Below are positions 9,387-43,330 of a stretch of DNA of 64,000 bases, in pieces. The stretch comes from an uncultured Pseudomonadota bacterium. Its GTDB lineage: Bacteria; Myxococcota_A; UBA796; SXON01. Where the stretch lies: the NCBI GenBank assembly GCA_903885375.1, contig CAISIK010000046.1, forward strand, positions 1 through 64,000, read 5' to 3'. The number at the start of each line of letters is the position of its first letter. Positions within the stretch are counted from its first letter, which is position 1. The notes beneath the pieces are model-generated. The model searched no databases, had not been told where the DNA came from, and saw only the letters and a list, made by a program, of their open reading frames with translations. The translations under genes and the position numbers were made by a program.

Positions 9387-9406
9387 GTGCAGGCAGTCAC
9401 GCGCGC

Positions 9407-9683
9407 GCCGACCCCCTCACCCGCCCCCGCACCGCCAGCGAGCCCGTGAGGCACGACGCCATCGGAGTCCATCGCACGAAGGACACATCCACCTCGCCGT
9501 GGGTGGCGTGCGCGCTCACGGCGGCGGAGGACGCACGGCATGGTGTTGGCGCTGCCCGCCGCCGCATCCTGCAAGCGGGCGAGCGCTCCTCTCACCTCCC
9601 CTTGCTGATGAACTCCGTGCGGCCACCGGGATGAACACGAGCGAAGGGGCGGCGAACAAAGCGAAGTCGAGAATTCTACGCAT
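9407..9683 (-). pseudogene. Collapsed copy of the mutase-tail/lipoprotein locus, preceded by a signal-peptide stub
   Basis: On the minus strand a signal-like start (MRRILDFALFAAPSLVFIP, ATG 9683) runs into sequence nearly identical to the 3' end of the methylmalonyl-CoA mutase gene (9505-9605 matching about 13260-13370). Next come pieces of the lipoprotein gene that follows it (9440-9500 matching about 12890-12965, and 9407-9435 matching about 12542-12568). Order and orientation are those of the parental locus, but intervening coding sequence is missing and frames are broken. It lies about 3 kb from its apparent source. I infer a duplication eroded by internal deletions; no function is expected. 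Confidence 0.75.
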
Positions 9684-9731: not shown

Positions 9732-10850
9732 CTACGCCAGCCCCAACTCCTCACCGCGGTCGTAGCGCCGCTTCACGCCGTCGGCGGCGAAGACGTAGAC
9801 GCCGTCGTTGCCGAAGGAGGTGGCGGTCTGCCGGGCGAGGTCCATGAGCAGGTAGGACTCCCGGTTGAGCCCCACGCAGAGGCGATCGCCGAATCGGCGA
9901 GCCAGGTAGGCGAGGTTGTCCGGGTCGTCGGTGTGGATGCGGTCCATGCAGTGGGGGAGCACCTGGAGGCCGCCCACCAGGCCGAGGCCGCGGTCGAGGA
10001 GCTGGAAATGCCGGTTGATGGGGTCGGGGTTGCGGTCGTCGAAGACGATCATCCGTTCGCACATGACCAGCGCCCCGGCGGAGGAGCACACGAAGGTGGC
10101 GCCCCGGCGCAAGGCTTCGAGCAGCGCCGGTTGAAGGTCGAAGAAACGAAGCGGCTCGAGCAGCGACGTGGGGTTGCCGCCGAAGAAGAAGATCCCGTCG
10201 GCGGCGAGGATGCGGTCGGCCATCCGTGCCCGTTCCGCCTGCCAGTCGGGGTCCATGCGCAGGCCCGTCCGCGCGAGCACCTGAAGTTCGGCCTGGACGA
10301 GGCTGTCGAGCATGCGGACGTCGTTCTGGACCAGCGTTTCGACGGAAGCGAGGATCTCCCGGCCGAGCGCGAGGGTGACGAGCTCCGCGCCGCTCCGTAC
10401 CGCGTCGGGCCCGATGGGCTCGCGACTGCCCAGCGCGCCGAGACGGAAGCGCCGCGAGCGCTGCCGCGAGAGGGCGGCGGCCTGGCGCACCATCTCCGCG
10501 TCGAAGCGGGTGCGCTCCTGGTACCAGCCCCGGATGATCGAGCGGGCGGCGTCGACCTCGGCGCACACCCGCGCCACGTCGGGGCGACGCTGCAGGAAGG
10601 CCGACCACACGTGCCACGCACAGAGGTTCGTCACCGCCTGGTCGAATCCCCCCTCCATCCGCGGGCGCACGCCTTGCCCGTACAGCGCCTCCTTGATGCC
10701 CCCCTCCCCGTACTCGCCCGGCCCCCAGGCCGCGGTGACGAGGAGCACCTGGGGTGAGCCGCCGTCCGCCGCCTTCAACAGCGGGGCGACGCGCTCGATC
10801 AGCTCGCCCCCGCCGTTGCCGTTGAACACGATCTTCCCGCGCATCCCCAC
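9732..10850 (-). CDS. Peptidase S51 / cyanophycinase-like class I glutamine-amidotransferase-fold protein
   Basis: A 372-residue protein with the fold of the dipeptidase E/cyanophycinase group. Residues 220-231 (IFFFGGNPTSLL) and 253-263 (FVCSSAGALVM, nucleophile probably Ser257) are the diagnostic elbow. LPHC at 298-301 supplies a candidate catalytic His300. Family members hydrolyse aspartyl or cyanophycin-type peptide bonds. The middle (residues about 70-200) is a long helical insertion not seen in the roughly 230-residue E. coli PepE, so substrate choice may differ. There is no signal peptide, so it acts in the cytosol. It is monocistronic, and divergent from the lipoprotein gene starting at 10927. 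Confidence 0.75.
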   Translation of the reverse strand: MGMRGKIVFNGNGGGELIERVAPLLKAADGGSPQVLLVTAAWGPGEYGEGGIKEALYGQGVRPRMEGGFDQAVTNLCAWHVWSAFLQRRPDVARVCAEVDAARSIIRGWYQERTRFDAEMVRQAAALSRQRSRRFRLGALGSREPIGPDAVRSGAELVTLALGREILASVETLVQNDVRMLDSLVQAELQVLARTGLRMDPDWQAERARMADRILAADGIFFFGGNPTSLLEPLRFFDLQPALLEALRRGATFVCSSAGALVMCERMIVFDDRNPDPINRHFQLLDRGLGLVGGLQVLPHCMDRIHTDDPDNLAYLARRFGDRLCVGLNRESYLLMDLARQTATSFGNDGVYVFAADGVKRRYDRGEELGLA

Positions 10851-12401: not shown

Positions 12402-12552
12402 GCGCAGCGCGGGGAGAGGAAAAACGAACGCTCTTTCCGAAGGGGCACCCCGGCACCGGTCCCCGCCACGCACCGCGCCGTCCCCACCTCCGCGGCCCCG
12501 GCGCGCTACCCGCTACGCCCCCCTGTCCGCGGCCACGCCCGCGCCAACCCCC

Positions 12553-13203
12553 TCACCCGCCCCCGCACCGCACCACCAACCCCGCCGCCGCCTCGCCGTT
12601 GGTGGCCGACACCGACCACCACACGCCGTTCTTGCGCGTGAGGTTGATCGCGAGCGGGCCCGCGGGGTCGGTGAGCGCGAGGGTCACGCGGTTGCTGGGT
12701 GGATCGGCGTCGAGCCTGGCGAACAGCGAGGCCACCGCGGCCGACCCTGCCGACTCCGAGCCGGCCGCGAGCGCCGCGCCCGTGCCCACGACGCGCCCCT
12801 TGCGGTACACGACGCCCTCGAACGGGAGACCATGGTCGTGCGGATCCGGGTCGTCCACGGTTTCGGAGCGCCCCACCGCCACCCGCCACGGCACCGCCAG
12901 CGAGCCCGTGAGGCACGACGCCATCGGCGACCAGCGCTCGAAGGACACATCCACATCCTTCATCCGCGTGTCGGGCACCCCATCGAGGAGCGCGGCGGCT
13001 TCGGTGAGATCGACCAGCACGGCCATGGTGATCCACGGCTCACCGGGTGCCCGGACGGCGAGCGCCTGCGCCGTGGCGTGACGGGCCGGAACGGGGCGCC
13101 CGCCCGCGGCCGTCCATGCGGAGAGCGCCTCGTCGAAGCGCCCCTCCCGCAGGAGGGCATCCGGGGTCGGCGCGGTGCACGCGAGCAGCAGGAGGAGGCT
13201 CAC
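12553..13203 (-). CDS. Putative lipoprotein downstream of methylmalonyl-CoA mutase
   Basis: A 216-residue protein starting at GTG 13203, which overlaps the mutase stop as [13 protein letters not shown] makes Cys9 the lipidation site. After a short '[16 protein letters not shown]' stretch that could be a single TPR-like helix pair, the rest has no recognised fold. The functional link to the mutase is unclear; overlap may reflect gene packing rather than shared function. Fragments of this gene reappear in the collapsed copy at 9407-9683, so the locus was once duplicated. About 150 bases with no feature I can name separate its end from the convergent propeller gene. Confidence 0.68.
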
Positions 13204-14702
13204 ACCACCACGGATTCCTGGTACACGCCGAACACGCCCCGCAGGGTGTCCGCCACCTCGCCGAGCGTGGCGTGCGCGCTCACGGCGGCGAGGACGCACG
13301 GCATCGTGTTGGCGCTGCCCGCCGCCGCATCCTGCAAGCGGGCGAGGGCTCCCCTCACCTCCCCTTCGTTGCGCGCCGCGCGGAAGGCCTTCAAGCGCGC
13401 CACCTGCGCCCGCTCCAGCGCCGCATCCACGCGAAGCAGCTCGCCGCCGGGAGGCTCCGCGTCCACGTACTCGTTCACCCCCACCACGATCTGCTCGCGC
13501 TTGTCGACCGCGCGCTGCGCCTTCCAGGCGCTGTCCTGGATTTCGCGCTGGGGGAAGCCGCGCTCGATGGCGGCCACCATGCCGCCCAAGCCATCGATCT
13601 CCGCGATGAGGGCGAGCGCTTCGGCTTCGAGGCGGTCGGTGATGCCCTCCACCACGTGGCTGCCGCCGAACGGGTCGGGGTGCGAGGCCACGCCGGACTC
13701 GTAGGCGATCACCTGCTGCGTGCGGAGCGCGAGGCGCGCGCTCGCTTCGGTGGGCAGCGCCAGCGCCTCGTCCTTGCTGTTGGTGTGGAGCGACTGGGTT
13801 CCGCCCATCACGGCTGCGAGGGCCTGGAGCGTGACGCGGACGACGTTGTTGTCGACCTGCTGGGCCGTGAGCGTGCTGCCCGCCGTTTGCGTGTGGAAGC
13901 GGAGCATGAGCGACTTCGGATCGCGCGCCCCGAACCGATCGCGCATGATGCGCGCCCACATGCGGCGGGCGGCGCGGAACTTGCCGATCTCCTCGAGAAA
14001 ATCGTTGTGGGCGTTGAAGAAGAAGCTGAGCCGCGGCGCGAAGGCATCCACGTGCAGGCCGGCGGCGATGGCGGCATCCACGTAGGCGATGCCATCGGCC
14101 AGCGTGAAGGCGATCTCCTGGGCGGCGCTGCTGCCGGCCTCGCGGATGTGGTAGCCGCTGATGGAGATGGTGTTCCACTGCGGGGTGTGCTCGCCGCACC
14201 ACGCGAAGAGGTCGGTGATGAGGCGCATGCTCGGGCGCGGCGGGTAGATGTAGGTGCCGCGCGCCATGTACTCCTTGAGCACATCGTTCTGGATGGTGCC
14301 CCGGAGCGCGCTCGTGGGCACGCCGCGCTCCTGGGCCACGGCCGCGTAGAAGGCGAGGAGCGTGCCGGCGGTGGCGTTGATCGTCATCGACGTGCTCACC
14401 TCGCCGAGCGGGAGGCCATCGAGGAGGGTGGCCATGTCGGCCACGCTGGCGATGGCCACGCCCACCTTGCCCACCTCGCCAGCGGCCATGGGGTGATCGC
14501 TGTCGTAGCCCATCTGCGTGGGCAGATCGAAGGCGCAGGAGAGGCCGGTCTGGCCCTTCTCGAGCAGGTACTTGAAGCGGCGGTTGGTGTCGGCGGCATC
14601 GCCGAAGCCGGCGTACTGCCGCATCGTCCACCTCCGCCCCTGGTACATCGTGGGGTGGATTCCGCGGGTGTAGGGGAAGTCGCCGGGGCGCTCGATGGAC
14701 AT
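13200..14702 (-). CDS. mcmA1: Methylmalonyl-CoA mutase, catalytic (large) subunit
   Basis: A 500-residue enzyme that carries the TIM-barrel substrate domain of adenosylcobalamin-dependent acyl-CoA mutases without the B12-binding domain. This is the split architecture known from archaea and some bacteria. It interconverts methylmalonyl-CoA and succinyl-CoA in propionate and odd-chain fatty-acid metabolism. Diagnostic segments are '[20 protein letters not shown]', '[18 protein letters not shown]', '[12 protein letters not shown]' and '[16 protein letters not shown]'. The Tyr in 'RGIHPTMY' and His in 'SGYHIREAG' match substrate-binding positions. The cobalamin subunit is most likely the gene at 60113-60514. 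The C-terminus ends ESVVV and overlaps the next gene; the upstream lipoprotein gene ends only 10 bases before its ATG. Confidence 0.95.
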
Positions 14703-14712
14703 GCCCGCGGAG

Positions 14713-15888
14713 CTAACCGGACCGGCTCCGCGAGGCCCTGCGCCGCCGCGCGAGCAGCACGAGCCCCCACCAGGCGAGCGGCGCCCCGGCCGACACGGTG
14801 GCGCAGGCGGCGCTGCCTTCGGTGACCTCGACCACGTCGACGTCGGGCGCCCATTCCGCGGTGAGCTGGTCCACCACGTAGTCGAGGCAGAACGCCTCGC
14901 CATCGGCGCAGGGGATGCAGGCGAGGCCCAGCCCGAGGGCGACGTCGCAAACCGCGTGGGGATTGCCCTCCTCCACGAGGTCGGCGATCGAGCGCGTGTC
15001 CACCCGGCCCGCGAAACGCATGCCCCCGATGTAGGTGCCGTCCGCGGCGAACGTGCCTTCGAGGCTGAGCGCCTCGACGTCCACCGGGATGTCCGCCAGG
15101 GAAAGGGTGGCGTGGTCCGCGGCGAGCTGGAAGAACCCGTCGGCGCCCAGCTCGACATCGGCGAAGGCCGCGGTGTTGACGAGCAGGTCCTGCCCGCCTC
15201 CCGGAAGGCCGGCGGCGCCGAGGATGCCGAGGCGGGACGACGTGGCGGACTGGACCTGCAACAGCCCGCCGCGGTCCACGCTCGACGCCGCGAGCGCGCC
15301 GATTCCGGGTGGCGTGGCCCAACGGCCCGACGTGGCGTCGATGGGGTAGGCGCGGCCGACGAGCGCGGTGGGATCGGCCACGGGCGTGCCGAGCGCGGAG
15401 GTGGTGAACGAGAGCTCGACCGAGCCAAAGCAGCCGTGCAGGGTGACCGAATACCCGGTGGACGGCGAAAGCGGCGCGACAGGAGTGAAGGTTACGGTCC
15501 GAGCATCCGACGACAGCGACATCGTGCCGCCGAGGACCGACTCCACCTCCACGGTGGGGTCCGGATTGGAGAGCACGAACTCCAGCGGCGCCCGGTAGTA
15601 GGCCTCGACGGAGCCGGCAGCCGGCACCGTGGACGTGACGACGGCCCCACAGCCGCCGGTGTCCTCACCGGTGTCGGTGTCCTCGCCGGTGTCGGTGTCC
15701 TCGCCGGTGTCCGTGTCCTCGCCGGTGTCGCGCGGCTGCTCGTGGCAGGCCGGGGCGGCTTCGCAGTCCTGGTCGTCGCAGTCCACGTGGCCATCGCCGT
15801 CGTTGTCCTCGCGGTCCTGGCAGGCGCCACGCTCCTCGGCGGGGGAGTCGGAGAGGAAGATGCAGCCGACGAGGAGGAGGAGGCTCAT
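14713..15888 (-). CDS. Lipoprotein with Asp-Thr-Gly linker and Ig-like domain, C-terminal sorting-like tail
   Basis: A 391-residue protein starting MSLLLLVGC (Cys9; a GTG six codons earlier is possible). Order: one Cys/Asp motif of the '[18 protein letters not shown]' kind (residues about 22-40), a linker of repeated DTGEDT units, an Ig-like domain starting at '[20 protein letters not shown]' and ending near 'SFTTSAL', then a long domain without known relatives. It ends in a hydrophobic segment and RRRR cluster (about residues 372-385), resembling MYXO-CTERM sorting tails, which is odd for a protein that is also lipidated. It is the first gene of a minus-strand operon with the mutase. A paralogous N-terminus occurs in the chimera at 18059-18596. 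Confidence 0.75.
15658..15729. repeat. Four tandem 18-bp units inside the lipoprotein linker
   Basis: Four consecutive near-identical 18-base units (ggtgtcctcgccggtgtc, with one or two changes) encode the repeated DTGEDT linker on the minus strand. The unit length keeps the reading frame, so copy number can change by slippage without disrupting the protein. Confidence 0.9.
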
Positions 15889-16003
15889 CCGCCCGATGTA
15901 AGCCACGCGGCGGCGCGCGGCAGCGGGCGATCGGAGAGCCGCAGGCTCGCAGGGAGCACGCGGTGCCCGAAGGGCAGCCGCCACCGGATAGGTTCCCTCC
16001 CCC

Positions 16004-16985: not shown

Positions 16986-17993
16986 ATGGTGCTCCTGCTT
17001 CCCTTCGCGTTCGCCGCCGACCTCACCTGGCCGGTCCTCGAACTGTCGGCGAGCACCCGTAACTTCGGGCTGGTCCCGCTGGGGAGCAGCGCGTTCGATA
17101 GCGTCGAGGTCAGAAACGGCGGCGATCTCCCGATGGGGTTGCGTGTGGAGCTCGTGGCCCAGCCATCCGCGGACTTCAGCTTCTCTTGGGACACAACCGC
17201 CTGCGACTCAGGGACACCGCTCCTCCCCGGAGCCGAGCTTCAGGCCGACACCGGCGGGAGCCAGTCGGCGTGGGAGGACGAAGCCGAGCCAGGCGCCGAC
17301 GCGGTGCTCCCCGCCGGCTGCTCCGTGACGATCTACCTCGGTTATGCCCCGACCGAGGGCGGGGAAGCGCTCGGCGCGTTGGTGCTGACCACGAGCGGGG
17401 ATTATCCCCACGGCCGCAGTGATTTCCAGACCGAACTGCCCGGATACGCCGAGGACCCCGTCGAGGTCCGCCGCGTGGTCACGCTGAAGGGGCGGACCGA
17501 CGGCGAGGCGCCCGGCAACAGCGGGCCAGCGATCCTGGCCGTGGACGCTTCGCCCGACGTGTGCCGCGAGGGCGAGTCGGTCAAGCTGCAGGCCTGGAGC
17601 GTCGATCCCGACGGAGGAGGGATGGCCTACATCTGGGGGACCGATTCGGAGCGCGGACCCGATCTCCTCGACAACCTGTACGGTCTGGGTCCCACCTTCA
17701 CCTGCCCGGCGGTGGACGCGGAGTGCGGGTCGGAGGAGGTCGTCGTCTACTTGCTGGCCACGGACCAGGACGGACACGAAGCCTGGGGTGACACGCGGGT
17801 GTGGGTGATCGACGAGCGTCGAGACCGTACCGAGGCGTTCGTCGCCGGGCAGGACAGCTGCCGACCGGCGTCCACGTCCGACGAGCCGGAGCGCCCCTGC
17901 GGGTGCGCACACTCTGCTGCGGGGCTGCCGCTCGCAATGGCCGCGGGGGTGATCGCGAGTCGGCGGCGCGAGCCGCGGGCGCAGCGGCGGTGA
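16986..17993 (+). CDS. Secreted protein with MYXO-CTERM-like tail
   Basis: A 335-residue protein with a very short signal (MVLLLPFAFAA). Residues about 18-45 'STRNFGLVPLGSSAFDSVEV' resemble the opening of ASPM/SPD-2/Hydin-type or choice-of-anchor Ig-like domains. A second region after about residue 180 ('LAVDASPDVCREGESVKLQA') looks like a PKD/cadherin-type Ig domain. The end carries a Cys-Gly-Cys followed by a hydrophobic segment and an Arg cluster (GCAHSAAGLPLAMAAGVIA, then RRR), as in MYXO-CTERM sorting signals cleaved and anchored at the surface in myxobacteria. It is transcribed alone, with the collapsed chimera immediately downstream on the other strand. Confidence 0.75.
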   Translation: MVLLLPFAFAADLTWPVLELSASTRNFGLVPLGSSAFDSVEVRNGGDLPMGLRVELVAQPSADFSFSWDTTACDSGTPLLPGAELQADTGGSQSAWEDEAEPGADAVLPAGCSVTIYLGYAPTEGGEALGALVLTTSGDYPHGRSDFQTELPGYAEDPVEVRRVVTLKGRTDGEAPGNSGPAILAVDASPDVCREGESVKLQAWSVDPDGGGMAYIWGTDSERGPDLLDNLYGLGPTFTCPAVDAECGSEEVVVYLLATDQDGHEAWGDTRVWVIDERRDRTEAFVAGQDSCRPASTSDEPERPCGCAHSAAGLPLAMAAGVIASRRREPRAQRR

Positions 17994-18058
17994 TTGCGGC
18001 TCCCTGAAAGCGACGGAACGGGGACATGGCCCCGCCCCCCCCTCACCCCACCGAAAAC

Positions 18059-18596
18059 CCCTCCACGAACGCTTCCTGCCCCCGCGTTTCCACCGCGCCG
18101 GGTCGGGCCGCGGAGCCAGCCGGAGCCGAAGGCGGAGGCGGAGGCGAGGGGCGGCGTGACGGGCTTCGTCGGCGCGCCAGGCGAGAGGCACGACCGCCTC
18201 GCGGTGGGCGCCGCCGAGGAGCGTGCCCGTGAGGCAGGCCACGGAGTCGCTGTCCCCTTCGATGCGGGCCGCCTTCTCCACGGCGAGGGCGAAGGCTTCG
18301 GGCGTGGCGCCGCCCCAGCGGAGCTCGGCCGCCACCAGCGGCGCCCGGTAATCGGCATCGACAGCGCCCGAAGACGGCACGGTTGACTCGATGACGACGT
18401 CACACCACTCCGGTTCTTCGCCAGTGTCGTCGCCCCCGCCCTCCGATGAACTGCAGGACCGCGCGCCCTGGCAGTCCGGGTCGTCGCAATCGACGACGCC
18501 GTCGCTGTCATTGTCCGCTCGGTCGTGACAGACGCCGACCTCCGACTCGGGGGCGCCGACTTGGAGGAGACAACCCGCGAGGAGGAGGAAGCTCAT
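18059..18596 (-). pseudogene. Chimera: lipoprotein N-terminus fused to a collapsed copy of the ADP-ribosylglycohydrolase gene
   Basis: ATG 18596 begins MSFLLLAGC, a lipobox, followed by a Cys/Asp motif, a DTG linker and 'STVPSSGAVDADYRAPL', paralogous to the lipoprotein at 14713-15888. At about 18345 the frame switches directly to sequence nearly identical to the hydrolase/phosphatase gene at 20208-21707. 18172-18336 matches about 20812-20977 and includes EGDSDSVACLTGTLLGGAH; shorter blocks match about 20730-20760, 20616-20645 and 20225-20278. Order is preserved and the sequence between blocks is absent. There is no stop near the parental end. I infer a rearranged, internally deleted duplicate; expression is possible because the lipoprotein part and first hydrolase block are in frame. 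Confidence 0.75.
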
Positions 18597-20207: not shown

Positions 20208-21707
20208 TCACCCAGGGCTGAACGCCTCGACGAACGCCTCCTGCCCCCGCGTTTCCACCGCGCCGGGTCGGGCCGCGCGCACCTCGGCCAGGGCCGCCGC
20301 GGGCGTGCGACCCAGGCCGATGAGGATGCACGCCGCGATGGTGCCGGCCCGACCGAGCCCGCCCCGGCAGTGCACCACCACCCGGCCGCCGGCGGCGATC
20401 TCCTCGGTGGCGGCGGCCACCAACGCTCTCGCCAGCGCGACCGAGGGCACGCTCACGTCCACGATGGGGCCGCGCACCACGCGGATGCCACGGGCCTCGG
20501 CCTCCGGGACGAGCGCAGTGGACCCGAGCTCGACCAGCTCGTGGTCCTCCACGAGCGAGAGGAGCAGCGTGGTGCCGGCGGCGGCGAGGGCATCGAGGTC
20601 GGTGTCGAGGTCGCGGAGCCAACCAGAGCCGAAGGCGGAGGCGCCGCGCTTGCCCGGGAGGAAGGTGATGCCGAGGGAGCCGGGGATGACGTCGTTCACG
20701 CGCAGCGGGTCGGAGAGGCTGGTGCGGAGGCGCGGGGGGGCGTGACGGGCTTCGTCGAGGGCGCGGAGGCGGTGGGCGAGGGCCCGCATCCGCGCGGCCT
20801 CGGGGAGGGCGGCGCGCCAGGCGAGGGGCACGACCGCCTCGCCGTGGGCACCGCCGAGCAGCGTGCCCGTGAGGCAGGCCACGGAGTCGCTGTCCCCCTC
20901 GATGCGGGCCGCCTTCTCCACGGCGAGGGCGAAGGCCTCGGGCGTAGGGCCGCCCCATCGGAGCGCGGCCGCCACCGCGAGGCCGAGCGCGCTGGGCGAG
21001 CGCCACCCGCCATCGCCGGCGGGCACCTCCTTCTCCTCCAGCCACTCCCCCGAACGGGCGCCGAGCCCGATCGCGGCGCGGAGCGCGAGGGGCACGTCGG
21101 TGCCCTCGGGGCAGCGCTGCGCCACCGCAGCCGCCACCTCCTCCACCATCCCGGGCGTGAGCGCCCCCGCCTCCATCACCCGCCGCAGGAGCCAGGCCCC
21201 CGCCACGGCGGCCGCCACGGCGTTGGGGTGGGCGTGGGTGACGCGCGCGCTGATGTCGGCCGCCTGGGCCAGCTCCTCGCCCGACAGCGCGATGGCCAGG
21301 GGTGTGATGCGCATGACGGCGCCGCACCCATCGGAGCTCTCGATGCCGGACTTCCGCCAGTCGGGGCGGCGCTCGTAGCGCGCGGTGCCCGCGAGACAGG
21401 TGTTGCCGGGCGCGGTGGAGGGCGTGAGCGGGTCGTGGCTCCAGGTCACGAAGCGGCGGGCAATGGCGTGCCCGAGGGCATCCTCATCGACCGCGCCGGC
21501 CGCGAGCGAGCGCGGCGGGAGGTCGAACAGCGCCTCCGCGAGGTAGAGCGCCATGTGGGTGTCGTCGGTCCAGCGGAAGTGGCCCGGCCGGGTGTCCACC
21601 GTGGCGGTGCGCACGCCGGGGAGGCGCAGGAACTCGAGCGGACGCCCCCAGGCATCCCCCGCCGCGAGTCCGAGAAAAGCGCCCCGCGCACGTTTGGATT
21701 CGACCAT
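20208..21707 (-). CDS. ADP-ribosylglycohydrolase fused to a dual-specificity/tyrosine phosphatase domain
   Basis: A 499-residue two-domain enzyme without a signal peptide. Residues 8-325 are an ADP-ribosylglycohydrolase (DraG/ARH) domain: GLAAGDAWG at 13-21, WTDDTHMAL at 46-54 and EGDSDSVACL at 270-279 carry the acidic residues that bind the two magnesium ions. Such enzymes remove ADP-ribose from proteins or small molecules. Residues about 335-499 are a cysteine phosphatase related to CDKN3/DSP enzymes, with the P-loop HCRGGLGRAG (Cys447, Arg453) and a probable general acid Asp418. Both active sites look intact. It stands alone, convergent with the ten-repeat MopE gene. Joint action on ADP-ribosyl/phosphoryl modifications is inference. 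Confidence 0.88.
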   Translation of the reverse strand: MVESKRARGAFLGLAAGDAWGRPLEFLRLPGVRTATVDTRPGHFRWTDDTHMALYLAEALFDLPPRSLAAGAVDEDALGHAIARRFVTWSHDPLTPSTAPGNTCLAGTARYERRPDWRKSGIESSDGCGAVMRITPLAIALSGEELAQAADISARVTHAHPNAVAAAVAGAWLLRRVMEAGALTPGMVEEVAAAVAQRCPEGTDVPLALRAAIGLGARSGEWLEEKEVPAGDGGWRSPSALGLAVAAALRWGGPTPEAFALAVEKAARIEGDSDSVACLTGTLLGGAHGEAVVPLAWRAALPEAARMRALAHRLRALDEARHAPPRLRTSLSDPLRVNDVIPGSLGITFLPGKRGASAFGSGWLRDLDTDLDALAAAGTTLLLSLVEDHELVELGSTALVPEAEARGIRVVRGPIVDVSVPSVALARALVAAATEEIAAGGRVVVHCRGGLGRAGTIAACILIGLGRTPAAALAEVRAARPGAVETRGQEAFVEAFSPG

Positions 21708-43243: not shown

Positions 43244-43330
43244 TGGGCCCGCGGGAAGCCGCGCCGCGACCCACCTTGGGGGTCCCTCAAGCGGGCGCGC
43301 GGCTCGGCGGAGCCGCAAACCGCGCCGTCC

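Follow-up and report, generated by a model that had tools for sequence, protein, structure and literature searches.

According to a paper on bacterial pseudogenes (PMC522871), redundant duplicates and failed horizontal transfers are two of three named origins of such sequences. In the archaeon Haloquadratum walsbyi, one study (PMC3119063) describes repeat-mediated deletions, many with short direct repeats of 4-20 bp, that leave gene remnants, and homology-facilitated illegitimate recombination (PMC3240628) concerns the uptake of linear foreign DNA. The locus at positions 18059-18596 of the window (the whole 64,000-nucleotide stretch of DNA analysed) may have points in common with each. As with those pseudogenes, there is a disabled copy of a detectable intact gene, whereas the copy here is in frame with the start of another gene and a remnant of similar age lies 9 kb away, which are details and no new kind. 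As in H. walsbyi, internal deletions, here with possible short direct repeats at their edges, have left gene remnants, although two joints share just 2 bp and only one strain is available here; as in illegitimate recombination, one end of the DNA may have been joined where homology was slight or lacking. Among literature titles, none on this locus was noticed, which does not prove its absence. Judged from the sequence, the locus is probably (about 0.78) a dead sequence, scarred by deletions, in which two gene remnants meet, and not a functional gene. Very probably it amounts to ordinary pseudogene debris, if debris whose history can be read unusually well.

The locus and its parent genes lie on the minus strand. 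It begins with a truncated lipoprotein head of 87 codons (18335-18596) that contains a putative lipobox (LAGC), a Cys/Asp motif, a DTG linker and the beginning of an Ig-like domain; nothing of the lipoprotein homolog beyond codon 87 is present. The head is a paralog of the intact lipoprotein gene at 14713-15888: in nucleotides, 18335-18404 matches 15582-15651 (77%) and 18453-18597 matches 15745-15889 (73%), and head residues 1-62 are 52% identical to the product of that gene, which itself has a weak Big_5 match (21.8 bits, under the cut-off of 23.6). Behind the head, 18056-18336 is made up of four collinear blocks, approximately 90-95% identical by BLAST and ungapped alignments to the gene at 20208-21707, whose 499-aa product combines an ADP-ribosylglycohydrolase (PF03747, 166.3 bits, cut-off 26.2) with a dual-specificity-type phosphatase (PF22784, 52.7 bits, cut-off 27). 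In BLAST searches within the window and across the whole genome, blocks and head retain parental order and strand. The block and head matches score 51.8-257 bits, and when 18056-18596 was shuffled 500 times under a first-order Markov model no score exceeded 41.0 bits, so chance similarity is excluded and the earlier note's description of four hydrolase blocks in order is confirmed.

Block 4 (18170-18336), which bears the EGDSDS motif, corresponds to 20810-20976 (94.0% over 167 bp, with seven silent and three replacement differences), and the translation bears out the proposal that it stands in frame behind the lipobox, Cys/Asp motif and DTG linker. Block 3 (18138-18171, edge placed by eye; parent 20699-20757) keeps the hydrolase frame and is 79% identical as a gapped match of 63 columns, with an ungapped core at 18145-18169 that agrees with 20731-20755 in 23 of 25 positions. 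Block 2 (18109-18140, equivalent to about 20612-20643) is out of frame; 18102-18140 matches 20604-20643 at 90% over 40 columns, and its ungapped core (18113-18138, equivalent to 20616-20641) is identical in 24 of 26. Block 1 (18043-18112) is likewise out of frame in the fusion, with 18056-18112 matching 20221-20277 at 94.7%. The TGA at 18043-18045 lies where the offset of this block places the stop of the parent, and 18043-18048 is identical to 20208-20213 at that offset. Between this identical stop region and the 95% block, 18049-18055 mismatches the parent at seven of seven successive positions.

From one hydrolase block to the next the parental offset shifts by 54 bp, which keeps the frame, and then by 83 bp and by 338 bp, neither of which does; therefore only the first internal deletion preserves the hydrolase frame; the homolog has shrunk to 281 bp, against 756 bp in the parent (20221-20976). 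Read by eye from the alignments and without a chance model, the joints share 2 bp between lipoprotein and hydrolase (CC at 18335-18336), 2 bp between blocks 4 and 3 (CG at 18170-18171), 9 bp between blocks 3 and 2 (GCGGAGGCG) and 4 bp between blocks 2 and 1 (CGCG at 18109-18112).

From the ATG at 18596 a frame stays open for 462 codons, with its stop at 17208-17210. Its first 87 codons are those of the lipoprotein, the next 65 or so follow the hydrolase frame, and the tail is out of frame and later runs antisense to the gene at 16986-17993. GC3 is 0.79 in the lipoprotein head and 0.95 in block 4; GC2 is 0.71 over 18057-18170, and GC3 is 0.67-0.79 behind block 4, compared with 0.86-0.94 in five neighbouring genes. 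On this codon composition, the head and block 4 read as former coding sequence and the downstream part does not. Against PF03747 the fusion scores 21.1 bits, below the cut-off, and matches only positions 247-285 of the 287-position profile. An N-terminal TDD and a C-terminal GD.D are what we take to be the two halves of the ADP-ribosylglycohydrolase metal site. The parent has both TDDT and GDSDS, and TDDT is present in 17 of 18 aligned hydrolase rows (three of them repeats), whereas the remnant retains only GDSDS; the EGDSDS motif is thus kept, as had been claimed, but the metal site is not complete. In the same alignment, with the same three repeats, the remnant has Glu in place of Ala where 18 of 18 rows show A, V or L, and Arg in place of Gly where all 13 residue-bearing rows show G. 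The lipobox was read by eye as MSFLLLAGC, in which few residues, and no Lys or Arg among them, precede the Cys. A working fusion gene was rejected on frame, codon composition, motif and constraint. An expressed and exported novel lipoprotein, which the earlier note had envisaged, is highly improbable: the lipobox, the in-frame joint and the 462-codon open frame speak for it, but only two blocks keep the hydrolase frame, what follows them is read out of frame or antisense and has a non-gene composition, the profile score is below cut-off, the metal site lacks its TDDT half and two conserved positions are changed.

A second collapsed remnant, also on the minus strand, lies at 9398-9603, and here the claim of a further such case 9 kb away held up. 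Its three collinear blocks come from the lipoprotein gene at 12553-13176 and from the 3' portion of the mutase-like gene at 13200-14696, and it carries a 1-bp insertion that is found neither in the parent nor in seven relatives. By BLAST, the blocks derive from 12534-12571, 12880-12957 and 13253-13366 (91-95% identical) in a minus-strand parent stretch of 12534-13366, beyond which they have no match elsewhere in the genome. By eye, and again without a chance model, the joints share about 18 bp imperfectly (16/18) and 4 bp. The mutase piece carries His in place of Leu at a position where the parent and seven of seven relatives agree; at site 13347 it is the parent, and not the remnant, that deviates from most relatives, and three further sites are undecided. 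Between this remnant and its parent stretch is a minus-strand gene (9735-10850) whose relatives in the genus are only about 26-37% identical, and which could be newly acquired.

Most of the coding changes that separate the remnants from their parents are silent, with 12 silent to 4 replacement changes over 271 bp in the 18059-18596 case and 6 to 3 over 163 bp in the 9398-9603 case. Pooled, 18 of 25 are silent against 28.5% expected (P = 8e-6), in a test on only 25 differences in trimmed blocks; the count omits the 1-bp insertion, block edges, 18043-18059, the overlap at 9418-9435 and the 38-bp block of 9398-9603, part of which is non-coding. Had the copy been non-functional from the start, next to a parent under constraint (assumed parent dN/dS 0.02-0.2), such a bias would have P = 0.001-0.004. 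As the differences are mostly silent, the remnant copies appear to have diverged for the most part as working genes and to have collapsed late. The dS between remnant and parent is 0.19 for the hydrolase and 0.16 for the second case, based on 12 and 6 silent changes, with dN of 0.02-0.03. The lipoprotein head compared with 14713-15888 gives a dS of 0.48 and a dN of 0.27; judged by these values, the head is a paralog far older than the hydrolase copy, and the locus is therefore not one simple fusion of two present-day genes. The changes of Ala to Glu, Gly to Arg and Leu to His and the 1-bp insertion look like decay following the collapse.

The earlier note had suggested a search of relatives for intact progenitors, and no close relative of the hydrolase came to light: matches were found in 38 of 58 genomes, the best at 58% within the genus and at 54-55% full length outside it, and one scan of named genomes gave 53 loci with a best full-length match of 50%. 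Among named records the nearest belong to the MAG of an uncultured proteobacterium from a marine sample and to a Myxococcales MAG. Neither the hydrolase nor the genes flanking the remnant were found in 6-40 kb stretches of 10 genus genomes (16 window proteins tested). As there is no close hydrolase relative, dating through relatives failed. The lipoprotein head has matches in 45 of 58 genomes, mostly spanning the Cys/Asp motif. Genome G003 retains the lipoprotein-mutase-lipoprotein arrangement, at 69, 91 and 46% protein identity, and is the nearest relative for the mutase 13200-14696 (dS 0.62). Among the matches listed, one lies across the joint (G015:C19:14719-14764, 85% over 46 bp); it falls in an unrelated frame, presumably protease-like by motif, and was thus taken as chance.

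Further remnants were sought in 70 stretches of the source genome (1,104,210 non-N bases, 18% of the genome) as pairs on the same strand, at least 86% identical over at least 30 bp and within 12 kb. The scan gave 29 pairs, six of which are blocks of the two cases described, and no further collinear multi-block remnant in the 1.104 Mb sampled. Two genomes of the same genus, sampled over 400 kb (240 kb of one with five pairs, 160 kb of the other with two), gave only tandem or single-block pairs and no collinear multi-block remnant. As there are only two remnants in 1.10 Mb, the recurrent mutational mechanism proposed in the earlier note is unsupported on a genome-wide scale. Five candidates were rejected by eye. 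L054 11028-11209 is another local mosaic, though not a collinear one, with two neighbouring 80-bp pieces that match 17928-18007 and 15332-15412 at 86%, from two parents and in reverse order; C20 has a tandem repeat and a single 32-bp match, L058 a single 48-bp block, C207 a single 55-bp block of a dispersed repeat, and L208 a single 308-bp repeat at a contig end. Two contig ends, L058 10534-10925 and L205 1-392, share 392 bp at 93.6% identity, which looks as though the assembly had been broken by strain variants.

A palindromic repeat about 65 bp long, with the core CGAGGTGGGTCGCGGCGCGGCT, is also dispersed through the genome; it occurs at 43257-43278 on the minus strand of the window and on L192, L060, L083, L193 and C207. 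There are 25 genome copies at up to 2 mismatches, 13 of them exact (reversed-pattern control, 0), and of 10 genomes of the same genus three have a single copy; the repeat looks REP-like and nearly species-specific. It lies away from both remnants. At least three other types of short palindromic repeat, with conserved arms and variable loops, are found at C207 71055-71119 and 74765-74824, L051 9590-9649, L202 1050-1114, L196/L201 and L076/L205.

The 18059-18596 locus holds collinear fragments of an intact relative in which reading frame and constraint have been lost, as in a pseudogene. Probably a hydrolase homolog, whether this lineage's own second copy or a sister strain's version, stayed intact and under selection through most of its divergence from 20208-21707, turned redundant, and was then lost piece by piece through deletions between short similar stretches. 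One of these deletions would have extended into the lipoprotein gene, and the open frame across the joint would have arisen by chance; 9398-9603 fits the same kind of history. Some observations count against this account: the 2-bp joint overlaps are no more than chance in DNA of 72% GC, the changes from head to block 4 and from block 4 to block 3 are both in frame, and the seven mismatches at 18049-18055 are not explained by a uniform 5% divergence. Each mosaic might instead have been built by a single complex event, in which templates were switched or short segments integrated illegitimately, with no full-length second copy at any time. The multiple blocks and the short overlaps at the joints would suit such an event, but the silent bias requires a diverged functional donor, and the kept order and strand fit simple deletions with no added assumptions, which leaves it an unlikely explanation. 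It is quite improbable that the assembler created the joint from strain variants: this is a genome assembly of 224 contigs with strain-like contig ends, but overlaps of 2-9 bp are too short for graph joins, and all four joints here and both in 9398-9603 would have to be false. A 127-bp contig-end match at 100% also hints at a long k-mer, although it is no proof.

If the deletion account is taken, the odds between a local duplication and a sister strain as the source of the second copies are about even. Under a single import, which is a version of the deletion account, approximately 94% identical DNA of a co-resident sister strain would have entered a 12-kb region, after which the redundant versions were deleted. 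This is a tentative proposal, in keeping with the silent-biased divergence and similar dS of both cases and with two remnants 9 kb apart and none other in 1.104 Mb. At or near several contig ends there are matches to other contigs, 93.6-98.3% identical over 120-392 bp, of the kind that strain variants would give; these support a sister-strain source and also keep an assembly artefact possible, but they could be repeats as well. The dS values rest on few silent changes, and no such sister genome was found, the nearest same-genus hydrolase and mutase being 58% and 84% identical in nucleotides. Two duplications within the lineage, with copies that were functional for a while and later collapsed, are a comparably tentative alternative. 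Gene duplication is common, strand and order are the same, and the parents are 2-4 kb distant, but two duplications of similar age would be needed within 12 kb, with none elsewhere in the sample, and one copy is present in G003, the nearest genome that shares the lipoprotein-mutase-lipoprotein arrangement, although this relative is too distant for dating. Two remnants in 1.1 Mb, both within 9 kb, hint at a shared origin, a post hoc reading of a small count. The independence of the two events, asserted earlier, was not upheld, as the similar dS and the proximity make a shared origin, possibly in sister-strain DNA, at least as likely on these small counts. It is extremely improbable that one sister-strain influx doubled two gene clusters in the 12-kb region, that both collapsed through short-repeat deletion and that one in-frame fusion would now be transcribed and exported as a surface protein.

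The open frame across the joint is a caution for the calling of gene fusions in high-GC genomes, in which chance open frames are long. If the history proposed for the two remnants is true, they provide a clear snapshot of a redundant gene version being cleared in an uncultivated bacterium, in which a copy diverges as a gene, vanishes via deletions between short similar stretches, and may leave a fusion-like open frame behind.
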